64,000 nucleotides of DNA, taken from an uncultured Pelagibacteraceae bacterium (GTDB taxonomy: Bacteria; Pseudomonadota; Alphaproteobacteria; Pelagibacterales; Pelagibacteraceae). The notes under the pieces are model-generated. The model saw nothing but the letters and a program-made list of their open reading frames with translations. It had not been told where the DNA came from and ran no database searches. This document shows positions 19,794 through 61,854 of the stretch, piece after piece (position 1 is the first letter of the stretch; each line of letters starts with the position of its first letter). The position numbers and the translations under genes are program-made. Where the stretch lies: NCBI GenBank assembly GCA_902605865.1, contig CACLEJ010000004.1, forward strand, positions 88,317-152,316. Direction: 5' to 3'.

Positions 19794-21080
19794 TTAATTA
19801 GAAAATCCGTATTTTCTAAGTCTTACATCTCCAGTTCGAGCATGTGCTTCCATACCTTCATATCTTGAAATCCTTGCACATGCTGCGCCCACTTCTTTAG
19901 TTGATTCCTTTGTCATTCTTTGGAAACTCAATGTTTTAATGAATTTTCCAACAAATAAACCACCTGTGTATTTCCCCGCACCTTTTGTTGGTAAAATATG
20001 GTTAGTTCCAGAACATTTATCTCCATAAGCAACTGTAGTTTCTTCACCAATAAATAATGATCCGTAGTTTTTTAATCTATCATGAAACCATTGTAGGTTT
20101 TTAGTTTGTATCTCTAAATGTTCGGGAGCATATTCATCACTGATTTTAGCCATTTCTTCATCTGTATCGCATAAAATAACTTCCCCATAATCTCTCCAAG
20201 CTGCACCAGAGTTTTCTCTCGGTAAGTCAGGTAAGTCTGCAATTAATTCTGGCACTCTTTTCATGACATATTCAGCTAATGATTTACTTGTAGTAAATAA
20301 CCATGCAGGAGAATTGTAACCATGCTCAGCTTGTCCAACTAAATCGAAAGCAACTAATTCTGGGTCTGCTGTTTCATCTGCTATAACTGCAATTTCTGTA
20401 GGACCAGCAAATAAATCTATACCTACTTTGCCAAATAAAATTCTTTTTGATTCTGCAACAAATTGATTTCCAGGACCAACAAGCATATCAGCAGGTGCAT
20501 TACCAAAAAGACCATAAGTCATTGCAGCAATAGCCTGAACTCCACCTAAATTCATTATTACATCTGCTCCACATAAGTCAGCGGTATAAACAATAGCAGG
20601 ATGAACTCCAACACCAGGTTTTGGTGAACTGCAAACAATAATATTTTTAACACCAGCAACTTTAGCTGTAGTTACACTCATTACTGCAGATGCTATATGA
20701 GCATATCTTCCTGCAGGTACATAACAACCTGCTGTATTAACAGGAATTAATTTTTGTCCAGCAAATAATCCATCTGAAAGTTCTACCTCAAAATCTTGGC
20801 CATAATTTTTTAATTGTGCTTCAGCAAACTTTCTTACTCTTTCATGAGAGAATTGAATGTCGTCTTTGGTTTTAGGATCTAAATTTTTTTTAATTTGTTC
20901 AATTTTTTCTCTTGTAACTACTACTTCTCCTTCATATTTATCAAATTTTTTTGATAACTCGATACATCCCTCTTCTTTTGTTTTCTCTATATCTTTTAGA
21001 ATATTTTCTACAATCTCTCTTGTTTTTGTATCATCAGTAGAAGATGTTTTGGGTGATTTTTTTAAATAATTTATTGCCAT
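19794..21080 (-). CDS. hpsN: HisD-like dehydrogenase, probable sulfopropanediol 3-dehydrogenase
   Basis: A 428-residue zinc- and NAD-dependent dehydrogenase of the histidinol dehydrogenase family. Family residues are visible: AGPTEIAVIAD, GQAEHGYNSP, EYAPEHLEIQ and EGMEAHARTGDVRLRKYGF. The segments AGCYVPAGRYAHIASAVMSVTTAKVAGV and GTNHILPT differ from typical HisD (YVPGG, GPNHVLPT) and fit the HpsN branch that oxidises 2,3-dihydroxypropane-1-sulfonate to sulfolactate. No other his gene is near, while suyAB (sulfolactate lyase) is in the window. Likely paired with the phosphate acyltransferase upstream. HisD itself is the main alternative. Confidence 0.65.
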   Translation of the reverse strand: MAINYLKKSPKTSSTDDTKTREIVENILKDIEKTKEEGCIELSKKFDKYEGEVVVTREKIEQIKKNLDPKTKDDIQFSHERVRKFAEAQLKNYGQDFEVELSDGLFAGQKLIPVNTAGCYVPAGRYAHIASAVMSVTTAKVAGVKNIIVCSSPKPGVGVHPAIVYTADLCGADVIMNLGGVQAIAAMTYGLFGNAPADMLVGPGNQFVAESKRILFGKVGIDLFAGPTEIAVIADETADPELVAFDLVGQAEHGYNSPAWLFTTSKSLAEYVMKRVPELIADLPDLPRENSGAAWRDYGEVILCDTDEEMAKISDEYAPEHLEIQTKNLQWFHDRLKNYGSLFIGEETTVAYGDKCSGTNHILPTKGAGKYTGGLFVGKFIKTLSFQRMTKESTKEVGAACARISRYEGMEAHARTGDVRLRKYGFSN

Positions 21081-21122
21081 GTCTAAATCCTAATTTAATT
21101 ATTATTTTTTTTCAATATTCAT

Positions 21123-22034
21123 TTAATCCAAAGCTACCACAGCTGCCGCAATAGACGCTAGCCTTGCTGTCGCATCATCTGATCTACTAGTAATTACTAC
21201 TGGAACTTTTCCTCCTATAACCACTCCTGCCGCACACGCACCCATAAAATAAATCATCATTTTAACTAGAGCGTTACCTGTTTCAACATTTGGAACTAAC
21301 AATACATCTGCATCTCCTGCAACTATATTGTTTATACCTTTTATCTCTGCGGATTTTTTTGACACACTATTATCAAATGCTAGAGGTCCAAATATATCTG
21401 CATTAAGACTCTCTTTTTCAGCTAATTCACATATTTCTTTAGCATCCAGTGAACTTTGCATGCTGTCTAAAACTTCTTCTGTTGCAGAAAGAATGGAGAC
21501 TTTTGGTCTTGCTATTTTTATTCTATGACAAAAATCAACTACATTTTTTAAAATATGCATTTTTGTTTTAACATTTGGATTAACATTTAGAGCACCATCA
21601 GTTATTATTAGTGGTTTATCCTCTTTATCTAAAGTCATATGCCAAATATGACTCAATCTTTTTTTACCAATCAAATTATATTTTCGTAACAGAACTTCTT
21701 TCATTAAAATGTCAGTGTGTATATGACCTTTAACAATTATTTTGACTTTTCCATCACCAGCAAGCTTTGCTGCAATTTTAGCAGTGTTATTTTCAACTGG
21801 TTCATTTATTATTTCATATTCAGAGATATCGAATTTTAAATCCTCAGCAGTTTTTTTAATTTCTATTTCATCACCTATAAAAACAGGGATGATCAATTTT
21901 TCTTTTACGCAATCCATTATAGATAGCATAGGAAGTCTTTTGCCTGCATTTACGATTGCTGCTTTGGCTCCTCTTTTTTGGTGAGCAATATCAAGTAAAT
22001 TGAATGGACAGACTGTTGATTTATCTGAAAGCAT
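21123..22034 (-). CDS. pta: Phosphate acetyl/butyryltransferase
   Basis: A 303-residue enzyme with the Pta/Ptb fold: KIIVKGHIHTDILMKEVL, ITDGALNVNPNVKTKMHILKNVV, NADIFGPLAFDNSVS, ADVLLVPNVETGNALVKMMIYF and VVITSRSDDATARLASIAAAV at the C-terminus. It swaps CoA and phosphate on acyl groups. With Xsc at 60070 producing acetyl phosphate, the likely role is to convert that to acetyl-CoA; phosphate butyryltransferase is the alternative. It is 42 bases upstream of the HpsN-like gene on the same strand, so the two are probably cotranscribed. Confidence 0.78.
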   Translation of the reverse strand: MLSDKSTVCPFNLLDIAHQKRGAKAAIVNAGKRLPMLSIMDCVKEKLIIPVFIGDEIEIKKTAEDLKFDISEYEIINEPVENNTAKIAAKLAGDGKVKIIVKGHIHTDILMKEVLLRKYNLIGKKRLSHIWHMTLDKEDKPLIITDGALNVNPNVKTKMHILKNVVDFCHRIKIARPKVSILSATEEVLDSMQSSLDAKEICELAEKESLNADIFGPLAFDNSVSKKSAEIKGINNIVAGDADVLLVPNVETGNALVKMMIYFMGACAAGVVIGGKVPVVITSRSDDATARLASIAAAVVALD

Positions 22035-22098
22035 TTGAATTTATATATACTAAATTAATAAAAAAACTAATATAGTATTATTGATATAAGGATAAAAA

Positions 22099-23890: not shown

Positions 23891-23897
23891 TTTCCAC

Positions 23898-23968: not shown

Positions 23969-24010
23969 AGAAATAGCATCAAAATTTATATGTGTTTTAA
24001 TAGTTTTTAT

Positions 24011-24659: not shown

Positions 24660-25664
24660 CTATTTCAATAAAATATGAAGATCTTCCATTATATTATCCG
24701 GAATTTTAATTTCTGATTTATAATTCTTTTTATATCTTCTTAATTTGTTTTCTCCTGGATATAATATTTCTTTAAGTCCTTTTAATTTAGGAAGTTTTTT
24801 AATTCTTTTTATATTTTCTTTTATTCTTTTTTTATAATTTGATTGAAATAAGTTTGCTTTCATTACAATAAATAAATGACCAATATTTTGTGGCCCAGAA
24901 AAATCATCAAAAGGATCTTTCACTTTTCCACCGTGATTACCTCCTGTGTAAACACCACTTAATATATCTACCATCCAGGCAAGTCCTGATCCTCTAAACC
25001 CTGCTATAGGAAGTTGAACACCATCAAGTGCTTTTTTAGCATCTGTTGTTGGATTACCAAATTTATCCAAAGCAACACCCTCAGGTATTTTTGAATTAGA
25101 TCTTGATGCAACTCTTATTTTACCTCTATTAATCATTGAGACAGATGTATCCAATATAAATGGAATTTTAGAACCAGTTGGCGATCCAAAACAAATTGGG
25201 TTTGTACCAAATAAAGATTTTATAGCACCATGTGGGGCTATAGCAGGGGGTGCATTAGTAAATACTAAGGCGATCATATTTTTTTTTACAGCTTGCTCAG
25301 CGTAGTATCCCGACATTCCATAATGGCCACTGTTTTTAACTGCCACAAGTCCTATTCCTGTTTTTTTAGCATTTTTTATGGCTTTTTTAATAGCTGTATC
25401 TGCAGCAACAAATCCAATGCTATCATCAGCATTTATATGAGTAACAGATTGGGAAATATTTTTTAGCTTGATTTTAGGTCTTGGATTGATCAGCTTTTTT
25501 TTGATCCGATCACAATACATTTTTAATCTAGATAATCCATGAGTTGGAGCGCCTACTAATTCAGCATTAATTATTGCATCAGCACAAATACCTGCGTGTT
25601 TTTTGGAAAGTTTAAACTTATAAAATATTTTAATTATAGTCTTTTTAAGTTTATTTTTTTCCAT
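24660..25664 (-). CDS. Malate/L-lactate/sulfolactate dehydrogenase family (Ldh_2) oxidoreductase
   Basis: A 334-residue NAD(P)-dependent dehydrogenase with a non-Rossmann fold. Family signatures: SRLKMYCDRI, VKNSGHYGMSGYYAEQAVKKNMIALVFTNAPPAIAPHGA, FGTNPICFGSP, PFILDTSVSMINRGKI and GFRGSGLAWMVDILSGVYTGG. Members reduce 2-keto acids (malate, ureidoglycolate, 2,3-diketogulonate, and 3-sulfolactate in ComC). Given the sulfonate genes in the window, a ComC-like sulfolactate role is possible but unproven. The epoxide hydrolase gene ends one base away on the same strand, so the two form a likely operon. Confidence 0.75.
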   Translation of the reverse strand: MEKNKLKKTIIKIFYKFKLSKKHAGICADAIINAELVGAPTHGLSRLKMYCDRIKKKLINPRPKIKLKNISQSVTHINADDSIGFVAADTAIKKAIKNAKKTGIGLVAVKNSGHYGMSGYYAEQAVKKNMIALVFTNAPPAIAPHGAIKSLFGTNPICFGSPTGSKIPFILDTSVSMINRGKIRVASRSNSKIPEGVALDKFGNPTTDAKKALDGVQLPIAGFRGSGLAWMVDILSGVYTGGNHGGKVKDPFDDFSGPQNIGHLFIVMKANLFQSNYKKRIKENIKRIKKLPKLKGLKEILYPGENKLRRYKKNYKSEIKIPDNIMEDLHILLK

Positions 25665-26825: not shown

Positions 26826-28751
26826 TTAACCCTTTCCTCGCCAAGGAATAGTCCTATCAATTATTTTTCTTAAAGTTATATCAAATAATAATCCCAACAT
26901 TCCCATAATAAAAATTGTTATCCAAATTACTTCATATTGAAAATATTTTTTTGCAACATTTTCAACAAATCCAATACCTGTAGTTCCAGCTAAAAATTCT
27001 GCTGCTACCAAAGTTCCCCAACACATTCCTACAGCGACTCTAATTCCAGTCAATATTTCAGGTAAAGAGTTTGGAAATATAACATGTCGAAGTATTTGTC
27101 TTTTAGAAGCACCTAACGAGTGTGCAGCATGAATTTTAGAAAGTTGAGTTCCAGATGCTCCAGCTCTGGCGGATATAATCATAATTGATAAAGAAACCAT
27201 GAATAATAAAAATACTTTTCCAGTATTATCAATTCCAAGTACTGAAATTATAAGTGGAGCCCAAGCTAATGGGGGTACTGGTCTATATAATTCAATCAAA
27301 GGATCAAAAAATCCTTTAGCAAATCTGTTTAGTCCCATAAATAAACCTAATGGAACCCCTATAATTATTCCAAAAACCAATCCTAAAAATACTCTTAAGA
27401 ATGAATCCCATATATGACCATAAGGAACAGGTATCTTGAATAGTTTAAAATCACCCGTAACTACTTTTAAAACTTTACCTTTAAAGTTTTCTTTAACTAT
27501 CCCTTCGCTTGTATGAACAGGGTATTCGCCTGGTAAAATATCAGCAATCCAATCTGGTAAAATAAATCCTACTATTGAACTAACATCAATCATTTCTATC
27601 CAGAGAAGAGGTATATTTTTGTATCCAACATTTGGATTAGACATTAGGATAAATTTATTTAATGTGTCTGACGGTTTGGGTAACCATCTCCCAGAACCTT
27701 GTTCTGAGCAACTTGGACCACTCGCAACAATTGTTCCAGCTGGAAATAAAACAATATCAATTAATCTAAGACCAGCTTGTTCTTTTTCCTGAAGGTCATC
27801 AAATTCAATAATCGCTTTTTGCATTTCATTTAGTGCATTTGGCGGATAAATGCTTGCAAATTCAATTCTTCTTGCAATTTTGACTATATTCTTGGCGTAA
27901 TCTGAGGAAATTTCCTCATTATCATCTAAACTTTTTCTATAAGTTTTAACTTCATCTTTCAGTTCTTTAATTGAACCTTTGAACTGTGGATTGTGATTTC
28001 TTAATTTAAAAAATTTATCATTAATTTTTTTCAGTTCCTCTGCAGCAGCTTGAAATTTTAAACCTTTTGAAGTTTCTGCAACAAACGGAACTTCAATAGT
28101 ATTTTCTATAGTACCAGTTCCTGATCTAACTGTTGTTATGCCCCAGTTACCTTGTTCAGATATTGCTTTTAACCGTTCACTTTTTTCAACTTCTGTTTCA
28201 AATGGATAATCTTCTTTTTTAAAATCTGAACTTAATTGTTTAATCTCATTTGTCATTTCACTTATTTTAATTTTAGTATCCATTTCAATTAAGTCCTCGT
28301 TAGTTAATAAAGGAATTAATTTTTTTGTTTTATTTATATATCCAACTAAAATTGTTTTTTGTTGACTGTTAAGATCATTTGAATTTTGTATTTCAGCTGT
28401 TATTTTTTGAAGATTTTTATTTTCAATTTTTATGATCGATGTACTTTTAAACTCTCTTTCCTCTATCGGAAATTGATATTTTAATCCTAAAAGTGATTCA
28501 TTTATTTTAGCAACTTGACATAATTCATTTGCTGATTTTGGATAAAAACCTTTTGCTATGTCCCAAGAATAATAAAGCCATACTAGTAATATTGCAGCAC
28601 TTCCAACAATAACCCAATGGGTTCCACCTTTAGCTCTTTCAGGATTTCCAAATACAGCATCAACTTTCTCAGTTTGTATTAATCTTCTGCCGTACATAAT
28701 GCATCCAATTATGGATACAAATATAAGTATGGTTATTATTTGAGTTAACAT
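26826..28751 (-). CDS. tauC: Taurine-type ABC transporter permease with large N-terminal insert
   Basis: A 641-residue inner-membrane protein. The last ~200 residues are a standard TauC/SsuC permease with the EAA loop AAHSLGASKRQILRHVIFPNSLPE. Ahead of it are two N-terminal helices (ITILIFVSIIGCIMYGRR and WVIVGSAAILLVWLYYSWDI) flanking a short loop, then about 330 mostly polar residues with helical, coiled-coil-like stretches (EAELKKINDKFFKLRNHN; SLDDNEEISSDYAKNIVKIARR). Ordinary TauC is about 270 residues. The insert probably lies in the periplasm. The gene directly follows tauB. Confidence 0.8.
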   Translation of the reverse strand: MLTQIITILIFVSIIGCIMYGRRLIQTEKVDAVFGNPERAKGGTHWVIVGSAAILLVWLYYSWDIAKGFYPKSANELCQVAKINESLLGLKYQFPIEEREFKSTSIIKIENKNLQKITAEIQNSNDLNSQQKTILVGYINKTKKLIPLLTNEDLIEMDTKIKISEMTNEIKQLSSDFKKEDYPFETEVEKSERLKAISEQGNWGITTVRSGTGTIENTIEVPFVAETSKGLKFQAAAEELKKINDKFFKLRNHNPQFKGSIKELKDEVKTYRKSLDDNEEISSDYAKNIVKIARRIEFASIYPPNALNEMQKAIIEFDDLQEKEQAGLRLIDIVLFPAGTIVASGPSCSEQGSGRWLPKPSDTLNKFILMSNPNVGYKNIPLLWIEMIDVSSIVGFILPDWIADILPGEYPVHTSEGIVKENFKGKVLKVVTGDFKLFKIPVPYGHIWDSFLRVFLGLVFGIIIGVPLGLFMGLNRFAKGFFDPLIELYRPVPPLAWAPLIISVLGIDNTGKVFLLFMVSLSIMIISARAGASGTQLSKIHAAHSLGASKRQILRHVIFPNSLPEILTGIRVAVGMCWGTLVAAEFLAGTTGIGFVENVAKKYFQYEVIWITIFIMGMLGLLFDITLRKIIDRTIPWRGKG

Positions 28752-29549
28752 TTAGTTTTCTTTTCCCATAATTTCTTCTTCCATGTTCCAAATCATGGAT
28801 AAAATTTCTTCACGTTTAGACGAAAATTCTTTATTTTTTTTTATTTCTCTCAAATCTTCCTTTAAGCCCATTTCTGCAAAAGGTAGATTATATTCTTTAT
28901 GTATCCTGCCTGGTCTGGGTGCCATTACATATAGTCTTTCACCAAGTAACAATGCTTCTTCAACTGAGTGAGTAATTAAGATAATAGTTTTTCCTGTCTC
29001 TTTCCAAATTTTAAGAACTAAAGATTGCATCTTTTCTCTAGTTAATGCATCTAACGCACCTAAAGGCTCATCCATCAATATTAAATCAGGGTCATTTATA
29101 AGACATCTAGCAAGAGCCACTCTTTGCTGCATTCCACCTGATAATTGGTAGGTAGGAGTATTACCAAACCCTTTTAAGCCAACAATTTCTAGCCATTCTT
29201 CAACTCTTTTAGAAGTTTTTATTGGATCTTCTTTTTTCATTCTAAGTCCAAAATCAACATTTTCAGCAACTGTTAACCACTCAAATAAAGCCCCTTGTTG
29301 GAAAACCATTCCTCTTTCAACTCCTGGACCATTAATTTCATTGCCAGCTAAAACAATAGAGCCTGAGGTAGGTCTCAAAAACCCTGCAGCAATATTTAAA
29401 AGAGTGGTTTTTCCACATCCTGAAGGACCAAGAACAGTAAGAAGTTCTCCTTTTTTTAAAGTAAAATTTACATCCTTTAATGCGTGAACAGTTTCTCCTT
29501 TAGGAGTTTTAAAAATCATATTTAAATCTTTGGAAACTAAGTCACTCAT
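28752..29549 (-). CDS. tauB: Taurine-type ABC transporter ATP-binding protein
   Basis: A 265-residue cytosolic ATPase. Walker A GPSGCGKTT, signature LSGGMQQRVALARCL, Walker B LILMDEPLGALDALTR and switch ILITHSVEEALLLGERLYVMAPRPGRI match the TauB/SsuB nitrate-sulfonate class. It lies between tauA, from which it is separated by a strong terminator-like hairpin, and tauC, which it abuts. Confidence 0.88.
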   Translation of the reverse strand: MSDLVSKDLNMIFKTPKGETVHALKDVNFTLKKGELLTVLGPSGCGKTTLLNIAAGFLRPTSGSIVLAGNEINGPGVERGMVFQQGALFEWLTVAENVDFGLRMKKEDPIKTSKRVEEWLEIVGLKGFGNTPTYQLSGGMQQRVALARCLINDPDLILMDEPLGALDALTREKMQSLVLKIWKETGKTIILITHSVEEALLLGERLYVMAPRPGRIHKEYNLPFAEMGLKEDLREIKKNKEFSSKREEILSMIWNMEEEIMGKEN

Positions 29550-29630: not shown

Positions 29631-30572
29631 TTATAAAGGTAAAAAACTAGTATCAACGGCACCACCTGGAGTTCCCATACCTTTTAGGAATCCATCAAGA
29701 TTACCGCTCTCCATCGATTGTTTAGTTTCTTCTGGAGTAAGAAATTTAAATCCATCTAATGTTTCTTTCATGTCAGCAACTTTCATTTCTGAAGCTTTAG
29801 ACATTGAATTCATATCGCTTTTACCAGCTCTATATCTGTCATTTGCTTCATGAGTTACTTCTATAAAAGTTCTAAGCATACCTGGATTTTCTTTCATGAA
29901 TTTGTCAGTTACAGATGTAATATCTATTCCTAAGATACCAGCATCTCTTGCTTCTTGAACTGTTAAAAGTCTTGAACCAACTGCAACTGCAGCTTTGATA
30001 GAATTTCCACCAAATAAACATGCCATCACAACATCACCACTTACTAATGCAGCAGCACCTTCTTCAGGATCCATTTGAATTATATCCATTTTACTTCTGT
30101 CAGCTCCAACAACTTTCATACTTTCGTCAAAGACGTACTCAGCCATAGTTCCAAGTGGAACTGCAACTTTTTTACCTTCTAATTCAGAACCGTTTGCTTT
30201 TGTAATTCCAGAAGCGTTAGATGTAACACAAGTTGTTCCACCCATTCCATATTCCATTGCAATATCAACTAATTTGATAGGTGCATTAGATTTTACAGCA
30301 TTAATAAAAGGTACTAAACCTTGAGAATAAGAAATATCAATATCCCCAGCTAGCATTGCATCAGTCATAGCTCCACCGTTAGTGAAGTTAGTCCATTTTA
30401 CTGGAACTCCTAGTGCTTTAGCAAAATTCTTTTTTTGCATGTCCTCTAAATTCGGACTTGGCCATTCTAGAAAGTAAGCAACTCTTACTTCATTTGCAGC
30501 AGCATTTGCAGCTGAAATTGACAAGTTAAGAGCGAATAAACTTCCTAAAATAAAGCTAATTAGTTTCTTCAT
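29631..30572 (-). CDS. tauA: Taurine ABC transporter substrate-binding protein
   Basis: A 313-residue periplasmic protein with signal peptide (MKKLISFILGSLFALNLSISAANAA). The mature part resembles TauA/SsuA: VRVAYFLEWPSPNLEDMQ, KWTNFTNGGAMTDAMLAGDIDISYSQG and EGKKVAVPLGTMAEYVFDESMK. A good ribosome binding site (aggag) precedes the ATG. Taurine is the likely ligand because Tpa and Ald genes diverge from the same promoter region and xsc lies further on. A candidate operator is found about 100 bases upstream. Confidence 0.85.
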   Translation of the reverse strand: MKKLISFILGSLFALNLSISAANAAANEVRVAYFLEWPSPNLEDMQKKNFAKALGVPVKWTNFTNGGAMTDAMLAGDIDISYSQGLVPFINAVKSNAPIKLVDIAMEYGMGGTTCVTSNASGITKANGSELEGKKVAVPLGTMAEYVFDESMKVVGADRSKMDIIQMDPEEGAAALVSGDVVMACLFGGNSIKAAVAVGSRLLTVQEARDAGILGIDITSVTDKFMKENPGMLRTFIEVTHEANDRYRAGKSDMNSMSKASEMKVADMKETLDGFKFLTPEETKQSMESGNLDGFLKGMGTPGGAVDTSFLPL

Positions 30573-30803: not shown

Positions 30804-32147
30804 ATGAGTTCAGAAAAGCCACAAATACCTAATTCTTTAAATGAGCATTGGATGCCATTCTCTTCAAATAGAGACTTTAAAGCAAATCCAAGGTTAATAG
30901 TTGAGGCAAAAGGTGTTTACTTAAAAAACCACCACGGTAAAACACAAATCGATGCAAGTTCAGGATTATTTTGTAATCCATTAGGACATGGTAGAGAGGA
31001 AATTATTGAGGCGATAACTAAACAACTAAGAACAGTTGATTATGCACAACCTTTCCAACAAGGATTTGGTGGGTCATTTGAATTAGCAACTAGAATTTCA
31101 AAACACACACCAGGAAACTTAAATAGAATTTTTTATACTATTTGTGGATCAACTGCTGTTGAGACAGCAATAAAAATTTCAGTTGCTTATCACAAAGCAA
31201 GAGGAGAAGGACAGAGATTTAGATTTGTTGGTAGAGAAAGAGCTTACCACGGTATGAATATTGGAGCAACATCAGTTGGTGGAATGATCAACAACGTTAA
31301 AACATTTGCGAGCGTTTTAATGCCGGGTGTTGTTCATATGAGACATACTCATTTACCAGAACATAAATTTGTTTCAGGACAACCAGAAACAGGTGCAGAA
31401 ATTGCAGATGATTTAGAGAGAATTTGTACAAACTTTGGATCAGAAAATATTGCTGCATGCATAGTTGAGCCGATTGCAGGATCAACAGGAACGCTTGTTC
31501 CACCAAAAGGATATTTACAAAGATTAAGAGAAATTTGTGACAAACATGGAATCCTTTTAATTTTTGATGAAGTAATTACTGGATGGGGAAGAACAGGTTC
31601 TCCGTTTGCATCACAAGAATATGGTGTCACTCCAGATATTATTACAATGGCAAAAGCAACAACAAACGGAATTAGTCCTTTAGGTGCTGTTGCTTGTAAA
31701 GAAGAAATCTATGATGCAGTAATGGATGCATCACCTCATGGGTCAGTTGAATTATTTCATGGCTATACATATTCTGGAATTCCTGTCTCTGTAGCAGCTG
31801 GATTAGCAGTACAAGATATATTTGAAAAAGAAGATATATTTAATAGAGCTAAAAATTTAGCTCCATACTTCCAAGAAGGATTGATGTCATTAAAAGATAT
31901 TGATGTTGTAGACAACATTAGAGGATATGGAATGATGGGTGGAATAGATATTAAAATGGATAAAAAACCCGGAGCAGCTGGATTTACATGTTTTAAACAT
32001 TGTTATGATGCTGGTGTTAACTTCAAGGCAACAGGTGATTGTTTAATTATTGCTCCAATGTTTATTTGTGAGAAAAAACATATAGATGAAATAATTGATA
32101 AATTAAGAACTGGAATTACTAATTATTCTAAAAGTAAAAAAAATTAA
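30804..32147 (+). CDS. tpa: Taurine:pyruvate aminotransferase (class III PLP enzyme)
   Basis: A 447-residue omega-aminotransferase. NSLNEHWMPFSSNRDFK, SSGLFCNPLGHGREEIIEAI, FDEVITGWGRTGSPFASQEYGVTPDIITMAKATTNGISPLGAV (PLP lysine in MAKATT) and YTYSGIPVSVAAGLA identify the beta-alanine/taurine:pyruvate group. It would convert taurine plus pyruvate to sulfoacetaldehyde plus alanine. Assignment to taurine rests on context: it diverges from tauABC, is followed by alanine dehydrogenase 9 bases later, and the window also encodes Xsc. Beta-alanine or hypotaurine remain possible substrates. Confidence 0.82.
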   Translation: MSSEKPQIPNSLNEHWMPFSSNRDFKANPRLIVEAKGVYLKNHHGKTQIDASSGLFCNPLGHGREEIIEAITKQLRTVDYAQPFQQGFGGSFELATRISKHTPGNLNRIFYTICGSTAVETAIKISVAYHKARGEGQRFRFVGRERAYHGMNIGATSVGGMINNVKTFASVLMPGVVHMRHTHLPEHKFVSGQPETGAEIADDLERICTNFGSENIAACIVEPIAGSTGTLVPPKGYLQRLREICDKHGILLIFDEVITGWGRTGSPFASQEYGVTPDIITMAKATTNGISPLGAVACKEEIYDAVMDASPHGSVELFHGYTYSGIPVSVAAGLAVQDIFEKEDIFNRAKNLAPYFQEGLMSLKDIDVVDNIRGYGMMGGIDIKMDKKPGAAGFTCFKHCYDAGVNFKATGDCLIIAPMFICEKKHIDEIIDKLRTGITNYSKSKKN

Positions 32148-46783: not shown

Positions 46784-46949
46784 TACTAATTCTTTCAAGT
46801 TCAATATTATTTGCGTTTATTACTTTTTTTCCGACATTTTGGAAATTAACAGTTACTTTGTCATTAATTATTGACTGGACTTGACCAATTCCCCAACCCT
46901 TATTTGCTGGATTAATAACTTTGTCACCTGGCTCAAAATCTAAAATCAT
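46776..46949 (-). CDS. DUF3553 family protein (57 aa)
   Basis: Just below the ORF track limit. Translation begins [24 protein letters not shown] and continues with [21 protein letters not shown]. The GDxVxNPxxxxWGxGQVQS and VTVNFxxxGKK pattern is the DUF3553 family of small alphaproteobacterial proteins of unknown function, resembling a CarD/KOW-like beta-barrel. Its stop overlaps the cysQ start by 8 bases. Confidence 0.75.
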
Positions 46950-53152: not shown

Positions 53153-53554
53153 ATGAGAGATCCCAATAACCCATGTTTATTTTGTAATATATCCAATAAT
53201 GATTTCGAACTAGAAAATGAATTGGCTTACGCTAGTTATGATACTTACCCAGTTTCAAAGTATCATGCTTTAATTGTTCCAAAGAGACATGTAGAAAATT
53301 ATTTTGAACTAAATAACGAGGAAGTTCTAGCTTGCGATGCTCTTCTAAAAGAACTTAAAAAAAAACTTGAATATAAAGATAATACAATCGAAGGATTTAA
53401 TGTTGGATCAAACTCTGGTAAAACTGCAGGACAATCAATTAATCATTGTCATATTCATCTGATTCCAAGAAGATCGGGAGACGTTGATAATCCTCAAGGT
53501 GGTGTTAGAAGCGTAATTGCCTCTAAACAACATTATGTGCGTAAAACCAAATAA
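53153..53554 (+). CDS. HIT family nucleotide hydrolase
   Basis: A 133-residue histidine-triad protein: NPCLFCNIS at the start, AYASYDTYPVSKYHALIVPKRHVENYFEL, and the triad INHCHIHLIPRRSGDVDNPQGGVR. Family members hydrolyse nucleoside phosphoramidates or AppppA-type compounds. It follows pabC by 3 bases. Confidence 0.9.
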   Translation: MRDPNNPCLFCNISNNDFELENELAYASYDTYPVSKYHALIVPKRHVENYFELNNEEVLACDALLKELKKKLEYKDNTIEGFNVGSNSGKTAGQSINHCHIHLIPRRSGDVDNPQGGVRSVIASKQHYVRKTK

Positions 53555-53650: not shown

Positions 53651-54451
53651 ATGATATCAACAAATCCATTTTTAATACTAGCAGAGACTGTACCACCATT
53701 TTTAATGCAATCTTTTGTAATTTTAATGGGTTTATTAATTCTAGTTGGAACACTTATGGATACTATTCATAAAAAAAATGTGAAGTATTTCTTTAATAAT
53801 GCGAAAAAAGCAAAATTATCAGCAACGAAAACCTTATCAACAGGAGAGAGAATATCCGTAATTTCAAAAACTATAGCAAGCGACATTGCTACTACATCAG
53901 AACTTGGAGCTGGTAAAAGAAGAGTAGCGCATGTAATGGGCATGTATGGAACTATACTTTTTTGGGCAGGTTCAGTTGTAATGATATTCTTTTATACATC
54001 TCCAGGATCCACTACTCCAACTGTGTGGCCAATGATATGGCATATTGGAGCAGCACTAACTGTATTAGGAGGATCTTGGTTTTGGTTCTTTTTGAGAGTC
54101 GATGTTTTTTCCGAAGCACAACCTTGGTTTAGAATGATTAAAGCTGACTTATTTGTTTTATCATTAATAGCATCATCATTATTTGGTTTGATTTGGTCTT
54201 ATCTACAATCTCTAAATCTTGTTGGGAGATATGATGATATGGTCTTTTTAGCATTATTTATTGTTGCAAATTTAGTTTTATTTGGTGGAGTATACTGGTC
54301 TAAATTTGCACATATGTTTTATAAACCTGGTGCAGCAATACAAAAAAATTTAGCAGAAGCTGATGGTTCTAGAGATAATTTACCACCAGAGGCAGATGCT
54401 CCTGAGCAATTTGGTTTAGGTATAAAAAGAGAAGAGCCAAAACACTATTAA
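53651..54451 (+). CDS. aprM: APS reductase membrane anchor AprM
   Basis: A 266-residue inner-membrane protein with about five to six helices (FLMQSFVILMGLLILVGTLM; VMGMYGTILFWAGSVVMIFFY; IWHIGAALTVLGGSWFWFFL; LFVLSLIASSLFGLIWSY; ALFIVANLVLFGGVYW). It starts the aprM-aprB-aprA run and is preceded by a strong ribosome site (ggaagga). AprM-type proteins are proposed to link the soluble AprBA dimer to the quinone pool in sulfur-oxidising bacteria that lack the Qmo complex. The gene name relies on this context. Confidence 0.8.
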   Translation: MISTNPFLILAETVPPFLMQSFVILMGLLILVGTLMDTIHKKNVKYFFNNAKKAKLSATKTLSTGERISVISKTIASDIATTSELGAGKRRVAHVMGMYGTILFWAGSVVMIFFYTSPGSTTPTVWPMIWHIGAALTVLGGSWFWFFLRVDVFSEAQPWFRMIKADLFVLSLIASSLFGLIWSYLQSLNLVGRYDDMVFLALFIVANLVLFGGVYWSKFAHMFYKPGAAIQKNLAEADGSRDNLPPEADAPEQFGLGIKREEPKHY

Positions 54452-54485: not shown

Positions 54486-54956
54486 ATGTCAACTTTTGTA
54501 TACATGACTCGATGCGATGGCTGTGGTCACTGCGTAGACATTTGCCCATCTGATATAATGCATATCGATGAAACAATAAGAAGAGCAAAGAATATTGAAC
54601 CAAACTTTTGTTGGGAGTGCTATTCATGCGTTAAGGCATGCCCTAATCATGCAATCGATGTAAGAGGCTATGCAGATTTTGCACCAATGGGACACAGCGT
54701 AAGAGTTAGACGTGAAGAAGAAAAAGGAACTATCTCATGGAAAATAAAATTTAGAAATGGAACTACAAAAGATTTTGTATCTCCAATCACAACTAAACCT
54801 TGGGGAAAGTTTATTCCAAAACTTGCGGAAGGAGACAAACCAAATCAAGGAGAGATAAATTCTCAAAGATTATACACTGAGCCAGAAGGTTTAAATATTG
54901 ATGGAGAACTACCATCAGTACCAAAAGAAACCTTCAAAAAGGGAGTTTATTATTAA
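54486..54956 (+). CDS. aprB: Adenylylsulfate reductase beta subunit AprB
   Basis: A 156-residue iron-sulfur protein. Two 4Fe-4S clusters: Cys10, 13, 16, 20 (CDGCGHCVDIC) and Cys42, 45, 48, 52 (CWECYSCVKAC). The C-terminal region (EKGTISWKIKFRNGTTKDFVSPITTKPWGKF) is the AprB-specific extension that wraps AprA. It carries electrons between AprA FAD and the membrane partner. Start follows aggag; the stop is adjacent to the aprA start. Confidence 0.95.
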   Translation: MSTFVYMTRCDGCGHCVDICPSDIMHIDETIRRAKNIEPNFCWECYSCVKACPNHAIDVRGYADFAPMGHSVRVRREEEKGTISWKIKFRNGTTKDFVSPITTKPWGKFIPKLAEGDKPNQGEINSQRLYTEPEGLNIDGELPSVPKETFKKGVYY

Positions 54957-56818
54957 TGGCCAAACATAAAACACATTACGAGGATTGTGACGTTCTAGTA
55001 GTTGGAGGCGGAATGGCTGGAACAGGTGCAGCATTTGAAGCAAGGCACTGGGGTAGAGATTTGAAAATTGTTTGTGTTGAAAAAGCAAATATAGATAGAA
55101 GCGGAGCTGTAGCCCAAGGATTATACGCAATTAATTGTTACATGGGTATGCAATGGGGTGAAAACCAACCTGAGGATCACGTTAGATATGCACGTAATGA
55201 TTTAATGGGAATGGTAAGAGAAGATTTAGGTTATGACATGGCGCGTCATGTAGACTCAACTGTCCACATGTTTGATGAGTGGGGCCTGCCTATGATGAAA
55301 AATGAAAAAACTGGTCGTTACTTAAGAGAGGGTAAATGGCAAATCATGATTCATGGTGAAAGTTACAAACCAATAGTAGCCGAAGCTGCCAAAAAATCAG
55401 CTGACAAAATTTATAACAGAATAATGATTACTCACCTTTTAATGGATGAGGAAAAAGAAAATAGAGTTGGTGGAGCTGTAGGGTTTAATATGAGAACTGG
55501 AGATTTCCATGTTTTCAGAGCAAAGACAGTTATAGTCGCTGCAGGTGGAGCGTCTCACATATTTAAGCCAAGAGCTGTTGGAGAAGGTATGGGAAGAACT
55601 TGGTACGCTCCTTGGAGTAATGGTTCAGCATATGCACTTCCAATTGCAGCTGGAGCGAAAATGACTCAAATGGAAAATAGAATTGTATTATGTAGATTTA
55701 AAGACGGATATGGTCCAGTTGGTGCATATTTTCTTCACCTTAAAACTTATACTCAAAATGCTAATGGAGAAAACTACGAGAAGAAATGGTATGAACAAAC
55801 TAAAGAATTAGTTGGCGAATATATCGACCATCACCCAACTCCAACATGTTTAAGAAATCATGCATTTATTCAAGAAACCATGGCAGGTGGAGGCCCAATT
55901 CATATGGTTACTACAGAAGCCTTCCAAGATCCACATCTAGAAACTGTTGGCTGGGAAAATTTCTTAGGGATGACGGTTGGCCAGGCAGTTGTTTGGGCCT
56001 CACAGAATATTGACCCTAAGTACACAAATCCGGAGTTAACAACATCTGAGCCTTATGTTATGGGCTCTCACGCTACATGTTCAGGCGCATGGGTAAGCGG
56101 ACCAGAAGATCTATCACCGCCAGAATATTTCTGGGGTTACAATAGAATGTTAACAATTGAGGGACTTTTTGGAGCTGGAGATACTGTTGGTGGAAGTGCA
56201 CATAAATTTTCATCAGGATCATTTACTGAAGGTCGGTTAGCTGCAAAAGCTGCAGTAAAATATATTGAGGATCAAAAGGCTAATAATATTAAAGTAAGTG
56301 ATAAGCAATGTGAGGATTTTAAAACAGCTGTTTACAAACCACTTGAAAATTATACTGTTGGAAGAAATGAGATAACTGGAGGAACTGTTTCACCTAGTTA
56401 TATATCACCAATTCAAGGCCTTCAAAGATTGCAAAGAATTATGGATGAGTATGTTGGTGGAATTGCAACAAACTACATGACTAACGCAAATATGCTTAAA
56501 AAAGGTCTAGAATTGCTTAAATGGCTTGAAGAAGATTTAGAAAATGTTGGAGCAGAAGACTACCATCAATTAATGAGAGCTTGGGAGCTTAAGCATAGAG
56601 CTTTAACATCTCAGTGTGTAACAGAACATACAATGTTTAGAGAAGAAACTAGATGGCCGGGCTATTATTATAGAGGTGATCATATGAAGCTTGACGATGA
56701 TAATTGGCATTGTCTGACAGTTTCTAGAAGAGATCCTAAAACTGGTAAGTTTACTTTAGAAAAAGTGCCCGTTTACCATATTGTAGATGAGAACGAGAAG
56801 AAAAAAGAAGCTTCTTAA
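54956..56818 (+). CDS. aprA: Adenylylsulfate reductase alpha subunit AprA
   Basis: A 620-residue FAD enzyme. DVLVVGGGMAGTGAAFEARHW binds FAD; VEKANIDRSGAVAQGLYAINCYMG, GGASHIFKPRAVGEGMGRTWYAPWSNGSAYALPIAAGAKMTQMENRIVLCRFKDGYGPVGAYFL and GLFGAGDTVGGSAHKFSSGSFTEGRLAAKA are AprA hallmarks. In aerobic bacteria it runs in the oxidative direction, joining sulfite and AMP into APS. In this window sulfite would come from Xsc, SuyAB and persulfide dioxygenase. ATP sulfurylase, needed to release sulfate and ATP, is not present here. Confidence 0.95.
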   Translation: MAKHKTHYEDCDVLVVGGGMAGTGAAFEARHWGRDLKIVCVEKANIDRSGAVAQGLYAINCYMGMQWGENQPEDHVRYARNDLMGMVREDLGYDMARHVDSTVHMFDEWGLPMMKNEKTGRYLREGKWQIMIHGESYKPIVAEAAKKSADKIYNRIMITHLLMDEEKENRVGGAVGFNMRTGDFHVFRAKTVIVAAGGASHIFKPRAVGEGMGRTWYAPWSNGSAYALPIAAGAKMTQMENRIVLCRFKDGYGPVGAYFLHLKTYTQNANGENYEKKWYEQTKELVGEYIDHHPTPTCLRNHAFIQETMAGGGPIHMVTTEAFQDPHLETVGWENFLGMTVGQAVVWASQNIDPKYTNPELTTSEPYVMGSHATCSGAWVSGPEDLSPPEYFWGYNRMLTIEGLFGAGDTVGGSAHKFSSGSFTEGRLAAKAAVKYIEDQKANNIKVSDKQCEDFKTAVYKPLENYTVGRNEITGGTVSPSYISPIQGLQRLQRIMDEYVGGIATNYMTNANMLKKGLELLKWLEEDLENVGAEDYHQLMRAWELKHRALTSQCVTEHTMFREETRWPGYYYRGDHMKLDDDNWHCLTVSRRDPKTGKFTLEKVPVYHIVDENEKKKEAS

Positions 56819-56834: not shown

Positions 56835-57185
56835 ATGGCTCTTTTAGATAAATCCGACGAGGAAATTATTAAAATTGCAGATCCAATGTGGGCTAACTTG
56901 GTTAAGTCATCGAACATCAAAGATTATGGAGGCTTTACTCGAGATTTGTCTTCTCAAATGATGTATGGAGCTAATGAAGTGGAACTTGGCAAGCAATGGG
57001 CAAATAATGAGTTGATTTCAAGTTTATCTGAAGGATGCAAAGCTATTGGATGTCTGAGAAGAGGTCTTTACATTACAGTCTTGTATAAACAGACTAGCAC
57101 AAAGATTCCCGGAGACTTTTTGGGAAGACTAGTGCTTGGAGAAGAGGGAGATGAAGTCAAAGTCTTCGGTGCTACAATTTTCTAA
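56835..57185 (+). CDS. Small unknown protein following aprA
   Basis: A 116-residue soluble protein, 16 bases after aprA. I do not recognise its family. It starts MALLDKSDEEIIKIADPMWANLVKSSNIKDYGGFTRDLSSQM, has two close cysteines (EGCKAIGCLRRG) and ends in strands (YITVLYKQTSTKIPGDFLGRLVLGEEGDEVKVFGATIF). The helix-then-sheet order resembles the NTF2-like fold weakly. Position suggests a role with APS reductase: assembly, stability or regulation. Confidence 0.7.
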   Translation: MALLDKSDEEIIKIADPMWANLVKSSNIKDYGGFTRDLSSQMMYGANEVELGKQWANNELISSLSEGCKAIGCLRRGLYITVLYKQTSTKIPGDFLGRLVLGEEGDEVKVFGATIF

Positions 57186-57236
57186 ATATTTTTAAATAAT
57201 ATTTGCATTTATTACAACTTGTGGTAATTCGCGAGT

Positions 57237-57383: not shown

Positions 57384-57434
57384 AAAACATTCATATTTAT
57401 TGACTTTATATTCTTAGAGGAATAATTACTTTAA

Positions 57435-58520
57435 ATGGAGTATTTTCTTCCAATTGCACAAGTCGAAATAAATTTACTTATTATATTTGGTCTAAGTTTA
57501 GTTGTAGGAATTTTATCTGGCTTGTTTGGAGTAGGTGGAGGATTTTTGATGACACCTTTTTTAATTTTTTTAGGAGTACCTCCTATTTATGCAGTTCCCA
57601 ATGAAGCCAGTAATATTTTAGGAACCTCAGTCTCTGGATCTACAACTCATTATCTTAAAGGAACACTCGATTACAAAATGGGTTTCATGATTGTCATTGG
57701 AGGAGCTGTCGGAACAATACTTGGAATTATAACTTTTTCATATTTTAAAGATATTGGAAAAATCAATGTAGTTATCTCATTAGCTTATATGTATATCCTT
57801 GCAATTTTAGGAACCTTTATGCTTATTCAAGGTGTATCAGAAATTGATAAAGCAAGAAAAAAAATAACTGAAAAAAAGAAGCTACATAAACATTATTGGA
57901 TACATGGTCTTCCTTTAAGAATGCGTTTTAAAAAGTCGCAACTTTATGAAAGTGCATTTACACCAATAATAATAGGTCTGATAGTTGGTTTTATTGCTGC
58001 AATTATGGGAATAGGTGGTGCTTTTATTTTAGTTCCAGCAATGATTTATATTATTGGGATGCCAACAAGATTAATTCCAGGAACTTCCCTTTTTGTAACT
58101 ATATTTATTAGTGCGATAGTTACAATTTTGCATGCGTTGAATTATGGAACCATAGATTTAATATTAGTTACTGTTTTAATTTTAGGTTCAATAATAGGTG
58201 TACAGTTTGGACAAAAAATTGGAGAAAAAATTGATAGCTCAGAATTTAAAACTATTTTAGCAATATTATTATTATTAGTTGGTATAGCAATTGCTTATGA
58301 TACTTTTATCAAAGATGAAAAAACAACAAGTGTTATTTTTAATGCTAAAGATAATTTAGGACCATTAAGTGAATTTATATTAAATTTTTCAAGAGATTTA
58401 CCAGTATTTTATGGTCTAACCTCAGTTTTACTTGCTGTAGTACTTGGAGTTGGAGCTGCAATAATTAGAAGAGTTTATTCTAATTGGGATGATAAAAGAT
58501 TAGCAAAATTAAAAAAATAA
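57435..58520 (+). CDS. TauE/SafE family sulfite/organosulfonate exporter
   Basis: A 361-residue inner-membrane protein with two repeats of the family signature: SLVVGILSGLFGVGGGFLMTPFLIFLGVPP and GLIVGFIAAIMGIGGAFILVPAMIYIIGMPTRLIPGTSL, separated by a basic loop (RKKITEKKKLHKHYW). Family members export sulfite, sulfoacetate or related anions during sulfonate use. It lies between the apr genes and the suyAB/xsc region, so sulfite export as overflow is likely. It converges with suyB, abutting at 58520/58521. Confidence 0.85.
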   Translation: MEYFLPIAQVEINLLIIFGLSLVVGILSGLFGVGGGFLMTPFLIFLGVPPIYAVPNEASNILGTSVSGSTTHYLKGTLDYKMGFMIVIGGAVGTILGIITFSYFKDIGKINVVISLAYMYILAILGTFMLIQGVSEIDKARKKITEKKKLHKHYWIHGLPLRMRFKKSQLYESAFTPIIIGLIVGFIAAIMGIGGAFILVPAMIYIIGMPTRLIPGTSLFVTIFISAIVTILHALNYGTIDLILVTVLILGSIIGVQFGQKIGEKIDSSEFKTILAILLLLVGIAIAYDTFIKDEKTTSVIFNAKDNLGPLSEFILNFSRDLPVFYGLTSVLLAVVLGVGAAIIRRVYSNWDDKRLAKLKK

Positions 58521-59687
58521 TTAGGCGCTTCTATATAATTTAGTCATAACAAACTCTTTATGACCAAGAGCTTCAGCACAAGTTAATCTTCCATTAGCAA
58601 CCCTTAAAGTTGATTTGATTAACTCATCTCCTGCTTGACTTAAATTCATTTCCCTAGATAAAATTTTAGAAACGTCTACATCAATATGTTCACTCATAGT
58701 TTTTGCTGTAAGAGGATTTGCTGTCAATTTAATCACAGGTTCTATAGGATTTCCTATAATATTCCCTTGTCCAGTTGGGAATAAGTGAATATTAAAACCA
58801 CCCGCAGCTTGTAAAGTAACACATTCTGCAGCAGCAGAAGAAGTATCCATGAAGTACAATCCTGCACCTTTTGTCGGTTCCTCGGCTGGCTCTAGAACAT
58901 CAATAAACTGACATCCTCCAATTTTCTGAAAATTACCAAATGCTTTTTCTTCAATAGTAGTTAATCCACCAGCAATGTTACCTGCAGTTGGTTGACTTTC
59001 TGATAAATCATCTGTTGCTTCTTTAAGAATAAAATCATTATAATCATTCCATGTTTTTTTAAACTTTGCTTGTGCCTCTGGTGTTTTACCTCTTTTTTCG
59101 CAAACTGCCTCAGCTCCTGTAAGTTCAGAAGTCTCACCAAAACATAAATGAACACCAAGTGGTTCTAACTTATCCATAAGATTTCCAACAGTAGGATTAG
59201 ATGCTAATCCTGATGTTGTATCAGACTCTCCACATTTTACTGAAATCCATAAATCACTCATTGGACATTCTTCTCTTTGTTTTTCAGAAGCCCACATTGA
59301 AAACTCTTGTGCTTTTTTTGAAACTTTAGCAATAGTATCTATATCTCCAACTCCTTCTATACTAAATCCTTCAACTGGTTTGCCAGTTGTTGCAATTGCA
59401 TCAACAATCCTTTTTGTCCATTTAGGTTCAATACCTACAACTATAACAGCTGCAACATTAGGATTTTTTCCCGTACCAATCATTGTTCTAAAATGAAGTT
59501 CTAAGTCTGCACCAAATTGTAGTCTTCCATAAGAATGAGGAAGAGCTATTGTACCTTTAATATTATTTGCTACTGCCTCTGCACATGCATTTGAAATATC
59601 ATCTACAGGAAGTATAATAACGTGATTACGTGTTCCAGCACGACCATTTTCTCTTTTGTATCCTAAAAAACTCTTTGGAATTTCCAT
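58521..59687 (-). CDS. suyB: (2R)-sulfolactate sulfo-lyase beta subunit SuyB
   Basis: A 388-residue protein of the altronate dehydratase/UxaA large-subunit family. [37 protein letters not shown] and [48 protein letters not shown] are typical of SuyB; conserved Cys residues ([25 protein letters not shown]) suit an iron or Fe-S centre. With SuyA it splits sulfolactate into pyruvate and sulfite. It follows suyA by 3 bases. Confidence 0.88.
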
Positions 59688-59690
59688 TAA

Positions 59691-59978
59691 TTACCACTTT
59701 TTTGTTTTTACGTTGTGAACATGAACATGTTCACCTTTTTTAATATTTTTAACTACTTTCCCAATATCATGTCCATATTTCAAAATAGTGTCACCTTCAT
59801 TTAGATCTGCCATTGCAATCTTATGACCCAATGGTATTTCGTCTTTTGATTTTATTGAAATAGACTTATCATTTTCCATTATCCAACAATTACAATCTTG
59901 TTTTGGGGTTATTTTTTCTATAACAACTACTCCAACGTTGTCTTTTTCATCATGTATTATTATATCAGTATTTGACAT
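59691..59978 (-). CDS. suyA: (2R)-sulfolactate sulfo-lyase alpha subunit SuyA
   Basis: A 95-residue SAF-domain subunit: IIHDEKDNVGVVVIEKITPKQDCNCWIMENDKSISIKSKDEIPLGHKIAMADLNEGDTILKYGHDIGKVVKNIKKGEHVHVHNVKTKKW. IPLGHKIA, YGxxIG and GEHVHVHN are the conserved UxaA/SuyA small-subunit motifs. It diverges from xsc over a 91-base control region, suggesting joint regulation. Confidence 0.88.
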   Translation of the reverse strand: MSNTDIIIHDEKDNVGVVVIEKITPKQDCNCWIMENDKSISIKSKDEIPLGHKIAMADLNEGDTILKYGHDIGKVVKNIKKGEHVHVHNVKTKKW

Positions 59979-60069
59979 TGTGACGATTTCTTTATTTGAA
60001 ATTCGCTCAATCTTATATATTAATCGGATACTTTGACAATTAAAAAAAAAGAATTAGAAAGGCTGAACT

Positions 60070-61854
60070 ATGACTAAGATGACAACTGAAGAAGCATTTA
60101 TAAAAGTTCTTCAAATGCACGGTATTGAACATTCGTTTGGTATAATTGGATCAGCTTTCATGGCAATATCTGATTTATTTCCTAAAGCAGGAATTACTTT
60201 TTGGGATGTTGCTCATGAAACTAACGGTGGATTAATTGCAGATGGATATACAAGAGCTACTGGAAAAATGTCAATGGTTATTGCTCAAAATGGGCCAGGA
60301 ATAACTGGATTAGTTACACCAATTAAAACAGCTTATTGGAACCATACACCATTATTATTAGTTACTCCTCAAGCAGCAAATAAAACTATGGGTCAAGGTG
60401 GCTTTCAAGAAGTAGAGCAGATGAATTTATTTAAAGATATGGTTTGTTATCAAGAAGAGGTTAGAGATCCTTCAAGAATGGCAGAAGTACTAAATAGAGT
60501 AATAGAGAAAGCATTTAGAGGTTCTGCACCAGCACAAATTAATGTACCAAGAGATTATTGGACACAAGTAATAGATATTGATTTACCACCAATTGTAAGA
60601 TTTGAAAGACAAGGTGGAGGAAAAGAGGCAATTGAAAAAGCTGCAAAGCTTTTATCAGATGCAAAATTTCCAGTTATATTATCTGGAGCAGGTGTTGTAA
60701 TTGGTAATGCAATTGATGAATGTAAAAAGCTAGCTGAGAAGTTAGATGCTCCAGTATGCAATGGATACCAACACAATGATAGTTTTCCAGGAAGTCATCC
60801 TTTAGCAGTGGGACCATTAGGATATAATGGATCTAAAGCTGGTATGGAATTAATTTCAAAAGCAGATGTAGTTTTAGCTTTAGGAACAAGATTAAATCCT
60901 TTTTCAACTTTACCTGGATATGGAATTGATTATTGGCCAAAAGATGCAACTATTATTCAAGTAGACATGAATCCAGATAGAATTGGACTAACAAAAAAAG
61001 TAACAGTTGGTATATGTGGAGATGCTAAGATGGTTTCACAACAGATTTTAGAAAAACTTTCACCAACAGCTGGCGATAATGGTAGAGATGAGAGAAAAAA
61101 TTTAATTCATCAAACAAAATCAGCTTGGTTACAAACTCTTACAAGTTTAGATCATGAAGATGATGACCCAGGGACAGTTTGGAATAAAGAAGCTAGAGAA
61201 AGAGACGCTGATAGAATGTCCCCAAGACAAGCTTGGAGAGCAATACAGGCCGGAATGCCAGATGATGTCATTATTTCAAGTGATATAGGAAATAATTGTG
61301 CAATAGGTAATGCATACCCAACTTTTGAAAAGCCAAGAAAATATTTAGCACCAGGTTTGTTTGGTCCATGTGGTTATGGTTTTCCATCAATACTTGGAGC
61401 AAAAATAGGTTGTCCAGATACACCAGTAATTGGTTTTGCAGGTGATGGTGCTTTTGGAATAAGTATGAATGAAATGAGTTCTTGTGCTAGAGAGGAATGG
61501 CCTGCAATTACAATGGTAATATTTAGAAATTACCAATGGGGAGCAGAAAAGAGAAACTCTATTTTATGGTTTGATGATAATTTTATTGGAACAGAGTTAG
61601 ATCCTGAACTAAGCTATGCCAAAGTTGCTAATGCTTGTGGTTTAAAAGGTGTTGCTGTTAAAACAATGGAAGAAACAACTAAAGCAATTAAGCAATCCTG
61701 CGAAGATCAAAAAAAAGGAATTACAACATTTATAGAGGTAATTTTAAACCAAGAATTAGGTGAGCCATTTAGAAGAGATGCTATGAAGAAGCCAGTAGAA
61801 GTAGCAGGAATTGAAAAAGGTGACATGAAGCCTCAAAAATCATTGGTAGGTTAA
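60070..61854 (+). CDS. xsc: Sulfoacetaldehyde acetyltransferase Xsc
   Basis: A 594-residue thiamine-diphosphate enzyme. The opening MTTEEAFIKVLQMHGIEHSFGIIGSAFMAISDLFPKAGI is nearly diagnostic of Xsc, and the ThDP motif appears as GFAGDGAFGISMNEMSSCAREEWPAITMVIFRNYQWGAEKRN. It converts sulfoacetaldehyde and phosphate to acetyl phosphate and sulfite. Sulfoacetaldehyde comes from taurine via Tpa; acetyl phosphate would go to the Pta-like enzyme at 21123. Because it needs ThDP, its activity also depends on the thiamine supply (see thiV). Confidence 0.94.
   Translation: MTKMTTEEAFIKVLQMHGIEHSFGIIGSAFMAISDLFPKAGITFWDVAHETNGGLIADGYTRATGKMSMVIAQNGPGITGLVTPIKTAYWNHTPLLLVTPQAANKTMGQGGFQEVEQMNLFKDMVCYQEEVRDPSRMAEVLNRVIEKAFRGSAPAQINVPRDYWTQVIDIDLPPIVRFERQGGGKEAIEKAAKLLSDAKFPVILSGAGVVIGNAIDECKKLAEKLDAPVCNGYQHNDSFPGSHPLAVGPLGYNGSKAGMELISKADVVLALGTRLNPFSTLPGYGIDYWPKDATIIQVDMNPDRIGLTKKVTVGICGDAKMVSQQILEKLSPTAGDNGRDERKNLIHQTKSAWLQTLTSLDHEDDDPGTVWNKEARERDADRMSPRQAWRAIQAGMPDDVIISSDIGNNCAIGNAYPTFEKPRKYLAPGLFGPCGYGFPSILGAKIGCPDTPVIGFAGDGAFGISMNEMSSCAREEWPAITMVIFRNYQWGAEKRNSILWFDDNFIGTELDPELSYAKVANACGLKGVAVKTMEETTKAIKQSCEDQKKGITTFIEVILNQELGEPFRRDAMKKPVEVAGIEKGDMKPQKSLVG

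Follow-up and report, generated by a model that had tools for sequence, protein, structure and literature searches.

SAR11 bacteria are extremely abundant and taurine and 2,3-dihydroxypropane-1-sulfonate (DHPS) are major plankton-made sulfonates, so how these cells dispose of the released sulfite has consequences for the sulfur cycle of the ocean. The locus described here raises the question of how that disposal is completed, as it places sulfonate-degradation genes together with an adenosine 5'-phosphosulfate (APS) reductase, AprMBA, in a genome in which no ATP sulfurylase (Sat) was found. The window analyzed is a 64,000-nucleotide stretch (contig CACLEJ010000004.1, positions 88,317 to 152,316, assembly GCA_902605865.1) of SAR11 (Pelagibacteraceae) origin, with a GC content of 31% and an Xsc that shares 99% identity with Xsc from Pelagibacteraceae single-cell genomes; the source genome comprises 1.24 Mb in 30 contigs and is 94% complete. 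Gene identities were scored with NCBIfam and Pfam models and read against the model cut-offs, and absences refer to searches of the genome contigs at this level of completeness.

We conclude that the window very probably carries a SAR11 sulfonate-use module that runs from sulfonates to sulfite and on to APS (Table 1). In the proposed scheme, taurine would be imported via TauABC and converted by an omega-aminotransferase and alanine dehydrogenase (Ald) to sulfoacetaldehyde and ammonium, with pyruvate recycled, after which sulfoacetaldehyde acetyltransferase (Xsc) would release sulfite along with acetyl phosphate, and the latter would probably be turned into acetyl-CoA by a PTA_PTB-family enzyme. 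On the second branch, HpsN would take (R)-DHPS to sulfolactate, and SuyAB would split sulfolactate into pyruvate and sulfite. Sulfite would then leave by TauE export or through AprMBA, which would join it to AMP to form APS while passing electrons via AprM, presumably to the quinone pool. A HIT-family protein encoded beside the apr genes may convert APS to AMP and sulfate or, with phosphate, to ADP and sulfate. An earlier note on this DNA had the taurine and DHPS/sulfolactate branches meeting at sulfite with Apr as the oxidizer; the family scores support this, and every gene that it named lies where it was placed.

The identities of Xsc, AprA, AprB, alanine dehydrogenase and the TauE/SafE protein are firm by family score. 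AprM has no family match in the model searches, but its gene stands directly before aprBA, and the AprA residues aligned to Archaeoglobus fulgidus N74, W234, R265 and H398 are identical, leaving the catalytic residues intact. In both respects the enzyme resembles the AprM-type (lineage I) APS reductase of sulfur-oxidizing bacteria, a type modeled for Pelagibacter in 2008 (PMC2211403), whereas the SAR11 cluster differs in having no Sat and in carrying sulfonate genes in place of a dissimilatory sulfur-oxidation locus. The suggestion that Apr stands in for a SorAB-type dehydrogenase is also supported, in that no PF00174 (SorA-type) protein was found in this genome and its single PF00384 protein, of 678 amino acids (aa), is most simply taken as NuoG rather than SoeA. 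This supports Apr as the only recognizable sulfite-oxidizing enzyme in the genome, and a role for Apr in sulfite detoxification in SAR11 has already been published (PMC5069961). We note that some SAR11 relatives (L267/G550 and L268/G166) encode a PF00174 molybdoprotein of the sulfite-oxidase type, 405 aa long, next to a MoaA-like molybdenum cofactor gene.

The module had been described as lying within about 42 kb, and the coordinates are right, but the genes form two islands about 20 kb apart rather than one locus, with mostly unrelated housekeeping genes (lolD, an RNA helicase, rseP, amt, cysQ, mnmA and pabBAC) between them. The order aprM-aprB-aprA-orf116-tauE-suyB-suyA-xsc in island 2 is conserved in SAR11 loci, and among 21-kb SAR11 loci long enough to show each gene, aprA is kept in 63/65, orf116 in 71/73, tauE in 73/74, suyB in 75/75 and suyA in 79/79. 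Because of this conservation the clustering goes beyond chance. In some relatives (L040 and L067) hpsN lies just past xsc. A promoter and terminator scan of 52.3 to 62 kb gave no excess over shuffled sequence.

No sat scored over the cut-off in this genome or in 40 Pelagibacterales relatives, and the gene has been published as absent from "Ca. P. ubique" too (PMC5069961). The earlier note had proposed that energy might be gained through Apr and Sat and had itself set the absence of sat as counting against this, so that Apr-Sat energy conservation is unsupported and a recognizable Sat is already refuted. The full version of that proposal, in which Apr and then Sat oxidize sulfite and conserve energy as ATP, is in our view extremely unlikely, even though outside SAR11 nearly all Alphaproteobacteria with aprA (17/19) have a Sat over the cut-off, often close by. 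To follow the alternatives we used a sample of 148 genomes of the order, 120 with aprA (119 over the cut-off and one contig-edge fragment, in G115) and 28 without. An over-cut-off APS kinase is present in six of these 148 genomes, all of which lack aprA, and in each it is encoded by the 3' portion of a frame of 600-630 aa that starts as a CysN-type GTPase (CysNC). In this sample no genome seems to combine Apr with an enzyme that makes APS, a pattern that speaks for Apr running from sulfite to APS. Reductive use of Apr is unlikely, since sat was not found here and an over-cut-off APS kinase was seen only as CysNC in genomes without aprA. Without Sat, the APS must be disposed of by another route.

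Two genes that the earlier note had overlooked, orf116 and the HIT gene, are the most Apr-linked unexplained genes of the cluster. The orf116 gene lies directly downstream of aprA in 120/148 genomes, exactly those with aprA, and is missing from all 28 others. Pfam, NCBIfam and PDB sequence searches with its product gave no match, while a structure model with a predicted local distance difference test (pLDDT) score of 88.7 gave weak NTF2-like matches, none at an E value of 0.001 or better, from which an NTF2-like protein is predicted. The gene likewise comes after aprA in two further alphaproteobacterial genomes, from a class sample, and in six genomes of a phylum sample; these carriers all have the aprM-linked type of Apr (in G349 aprM is truncated by the contig end), and most other AprM-type Alphaproteobacteria are without orf116. 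Its position after aprA in several other Pseudomonadota makes orf116 a candidate accessory factor for APS reductases of the AprM type beyond SAR11 as well. A role as a substitute for Sat was rejected, since orf116 follows aprA in G437, a genome with sat.

The HIT gene occurs in 100/120 genomes with aprA and in 0/28 without it (Fisher P = 1e-17 overall and 5e-7 within the genus, with kinship and linkage ignored), and the HxHxH motif is intact in all 50 of the 50 loci that have the gene. It stands 77-116 bases upstream of aprM in the genus of the window, between tauE and suyB on the opposite strand in genus g8, where no pab genes are nearby, and between aprBA and xsc, again without pab genes, in the unrelated genome G390. 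Given that it stays with the cluster genes in g8 and G390 without pab, the gene tracks the sulfite cluster and not the folate genes. The HIT proteins Hint4 of Arabidopsis and DcpS of Caenorhabditis elegans are reported to hydrolyze or phosphorolyze APS (Guranowski 2010, cited in PMC7072326), and Fhit is stated to release AMP from APS (PMC7072326). The window protein shares the HxHxH triad and a weak DcpS_C match with these enzymes, but it belongs to a bacterial subfamily without a close solved relative (best 63 bits), and its activity on APS is putative. Since APS cleavage is reported for other HIT proteins, it is a reasonable candidate for the missing step. It is the likeliest candidate APS sink, and we tentatively suggest that it may cleave APS.

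Several observations weigh against this picture. The HIT gene is absent from 20/120 genomes with aprA, including all 11 such genomes of family f2, and so cannot be the sole APS sink; G390, with HIT beside apr, also has sat; and the HIT subfamily is widespread in bacteria, with proteins about 50% identical on unrelated plasmids. In the genus of the window the gene starts 3 bases after pabC and may be co-transcribed with the folate genes. Upstream in the scheme, both the preference of the aminotransferase for taurine and the acyl group used by the PTA_PTB enzyme are putative. Taken as a whole, a route without Sat in which AprMBA, helped by a dedicated NTF2-like orf116 product, makes APS and the clustered HIT protein splits it to sulfate and AMP or ADP is more doubtful than likely. 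A general rule that HIT stands beside xsc or aprA outside SAR11 was rejected, as the xsc and aprA loci of the class and phylum samples, most with flanks of 1.5 kb, yielded the one case of G390. The locus in this unrelated alphaproteobacterium (L199:3145-11190) holds together sat, an ankyrin-like gene, distant-type aprBA, a cysteine-rich 315-aa protein, HIT and xsc.

Sulfite might instead leave mainly through TauE, with Apr as a small safety valve whose APS is lost spontaneously or to general hydrolases. The TauE/SafE gene does lie within the cluster and is conserved to the same degree as apr, and a dedicated, universal APS-consuming enzyme was not found; a minor role for Apr fits poorly with the retention of aprMBA-orf116 in 120/148 genomes and with the report that aprAB are among the core genes under the strongest purifying selection (PMC12636525). 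We regard this export route as possible, though far from favored. It is unlikely that APS is a useful product, phosphorylated to 3'-phosphoadenosine 5'-phosphosulfate (PAPS) for sulfation with CysQ recycling the resulting 3'-phosphoadenosine 5'-phosphate. The window does encode cysQ, but this gene occurs in strains without aprA too (PMC5069961); a SAR11 "cysC" is listed with a distribution over strains that matches that of aprA (PMC5069961, Table 3), and in one genome an APS-kinase-like gene sits beside sulfotransferase-like genes (L091; sulfotransferases judged by eye). The genus-wide APS-kinase-like gene, which is probably the one annotated "cysC" in SAR11, is however a short P-loop kinase (135-150 aa) that scores under the apsK cut-off, has genes for a Rieske oxygenase and a nucleotidyltransferase as neighbors, and also occurs in genomes without aprA. 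CysC and PAPS were rejected as the main sink, with true apsK seen only as CysNC in genomes without aprA and the "cysC"-like gene a short P-loop kinase at another locus. The locus with the sulfotransferase-like genes (L091:200-3012, G113), in which the APS-kinase-like gene lies between them, comes from a SAR11 genome where no over-cut-off APS kinase was found.

Quite unlikely, too, is that an unrecognized ATP sulfurylase exists in the form of a small nucleotidyltransferase with a HIGH motif, acting with a kinase partner. In family f2 the nucleotidyltransferase gene adjoins aprMBA-orf116 (11/11 genomes with aprA, 0/7 without), and in genus g8 it comes directly before aprM, but in the genus of the window it is located elsewhere and also occurs in genomes without aprA, searches did not find it here or in 12 or more other aprA-bearing genomes, and its nearest curated models are nicotinamide mononucleotide adenylyltransferases, with every score far under the cut-off. 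Its presence in genomes of the window's genus without aprA and its absence from several with aprA led us to reject it as a Sat. These proteins are 123-131 aa long (L153:9262-10141, L159:3710-4090 and L112:2281-3059) and are often encoded with the APS-kinase-like P-loop kinase; the gene is adjacent to apr in f2, and in g8 without the kinase, and beside the Rieske oxygenase in the genus of the window.

The two branches that feed sulfite into the module differ in how closely their enzymes can be named. Growth of SAR11 on taurine has already been published (PMC5864207), and ald and xsc both score over their cut-offs here. The tauA, tauB and tauC products match taurine/sulfonate ATP-binding cassette (ABC) families, all under the equivalog cut-offs, and the TauC permease carries an extension of about 440 residues ahead of its transporter domain. 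The gene named tpa in the earlier note encodes a member of the omega-amino acid:pyruvate aminotransferase family, and it does lie beside tauABC and ald, but the only cut-off it passes is that of the omega-aminotransferase AptA model (573.5 versus 500), and the proteins of solved structure closest to it are beta-alanine/omega-amino-acid:pyruvate aminotransferases; its identity is at the family level, with taurine as the putative substrate because the gene lies between tauABC and ald. The Pta-like gene likewise belongs to the PTA_PTB family as proposed, yet its product falls far below the canonical model (TIGR00651, 62 bits against a cut-off of 311) while passing a subfamily model (NF006045, 299 against 282), and it is by these scores a PTA_PTB-family protein, not a canonical Pta.

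On the DHPS branch, what had been a probable hpsN is now firm: its product scores 540 bits to the solved sulfopropanediol 3-dehydrogenase 8v35 versus 243 to the best HisD, which identifies it as HpsN rather than histidinol dehydrogenase. SAR11 HpsN, HpsO and HpsP have been assayed and are active on DHPS, with their genes dispersed and not in a single operon (PMC11131964). Neither Suy subunit reached an NCBIfam cut-off, but SuyB shares 63.5% identity with a UxaA-family protein adjoining hpsN-hpsO on a plasmid of Cupriavidus pinatubonensis and 70% with Paracoccus proteins that have the same arrangement of small and large subunits beside a sulfate-exporter gene; this layout and the identity to an hpsNO-linked protein make the assignment good, with the activity predicted. 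The branch thereby resembles the HpsN-SuyAB pathway of C. pinatubonensis and roseobacters, in which SAR11 differs by having the genes outside one operon. An LDH2-family oxidoreductase in island 1, whose best curated model is an L-sulfolactate dehydrogenase under the cut-off, may interconvert sulfolactate isomers. For the persulfide branch that the earlier note added, only one rhodanese within its coordinates could belong, and no persulfide dioxygenase was recognized in the scanned open reading frames.

Table 1. Positions in the window of the genes and islands discussed, with the basis of each assignment.
Feature	Position	Strand	Basis or remark
Island 1, hpsN-pta-...-tauCBA-tpa-ald	19.8-33.3 kb
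hpsN, (R)-DHPS/sulfopropanediol 3-dehydrogenase	19794..21080	-	HisD superfamily; 540 bits to 8v35
PTA_PTB-family phosphotransacylase, candidate for acetyl phosphate to acetyl-CoA	21123..22034	-	PF01515, 113 bits
LDH2/MDH2-family oxidoreductase, possible sulfolactate dehydrogenase (weak)	24660..25664	-	L-sulfolactate dehydrogenase model 254.5, cut-off 500
tauC, ABC permease with long N-terminal extension	26826..28751	-	TauC model matches residues 444-640
tauB, ABC ATPase	28752..29549	-	Taurine ABC ATPase model 271 bits, cut-off 357
tauA, substrate-binding protein	29631..30572	-	SsuA/TauA families; sole solved relative is taurine-binding protein 6ssy
Omega-aminotransferase, putative taurine:pyruvate aminotransferase (tpa)	30804..32147	+	Divergent from tauABC, adjoins ald
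ald, alanine dehydrogenase	32157..33272	+	499.5 bits, cut-off 392
Rhodanese	44413-44799
cysQ	46007-46804
Island 2, HIT-aprMBA-orf116-tauE-suyBA-xsc	53.2-61.9 kb
HIT-family protein, candidate APS hydrolase/phosphorylase	53153..53554	+	HCHIH motif; PF01230 64 bits, DcpS_C 41 bits
aprM, membrane anchor of lineage I APS reductase	53651..54451	+	Conserved position before aprBA; PMC2211403
aprB, APS reductase beta subunit	54486..54956	+	187 bits, cut-off 136
aprA, APS reductase alpha subunit	54956..56818	+	997.5, cut-off 642
orf116, small protein after aprA, predicted NTF2-like fold	56835..57185	+	Co-occurrence with aprA; structure model
TauE/SafE-family anion (sulfite) exporter	57435..58520	+	PF01925, 154 bits
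suyB, (R)-sulfolactate sulfo-lyase large subunit, putative	58521..59687	-	GD_AH domains; 63-70% identity to UxaA-family proteins
suyA, small subunit, putative	59691..59978	-	Short UxaA-type partner immediately ahead of suyB; Cupriavidus and Paracoccus share this order
xsc, sulfoacetaldehyde acetyltransferase	60070..61854	+	TIGR03457 970 bits, cut-off 676

The gene network is correct yet already known for SAR11. A 2025 survey finds suyAB, xsc and a sulfur dioxygenase to be core or near-core and reaches the same scheme, with SAR11 sulfonates leading to sulfite and Apr as its sink (PMC12636525), and the locus agrees with published SAR11 organosulfonate catabolism in lineage, in genes (aprAB, suyAB, xsc and hpsN) and in the role of Apr (PMC12636525, PMC5069961, PMC11131964). 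It departs from that scheme in the HIT gene and orf116, which go unmentioned in the passages of these three papers found by term search. As genes for small proteins, HIT and orf116 make the fate of APS without Sat directly testable. If true, the HIT route without Sat would be a previously unrecognized short path from sulfonate sulfur to sulfate in very abundant ocean bacteria.

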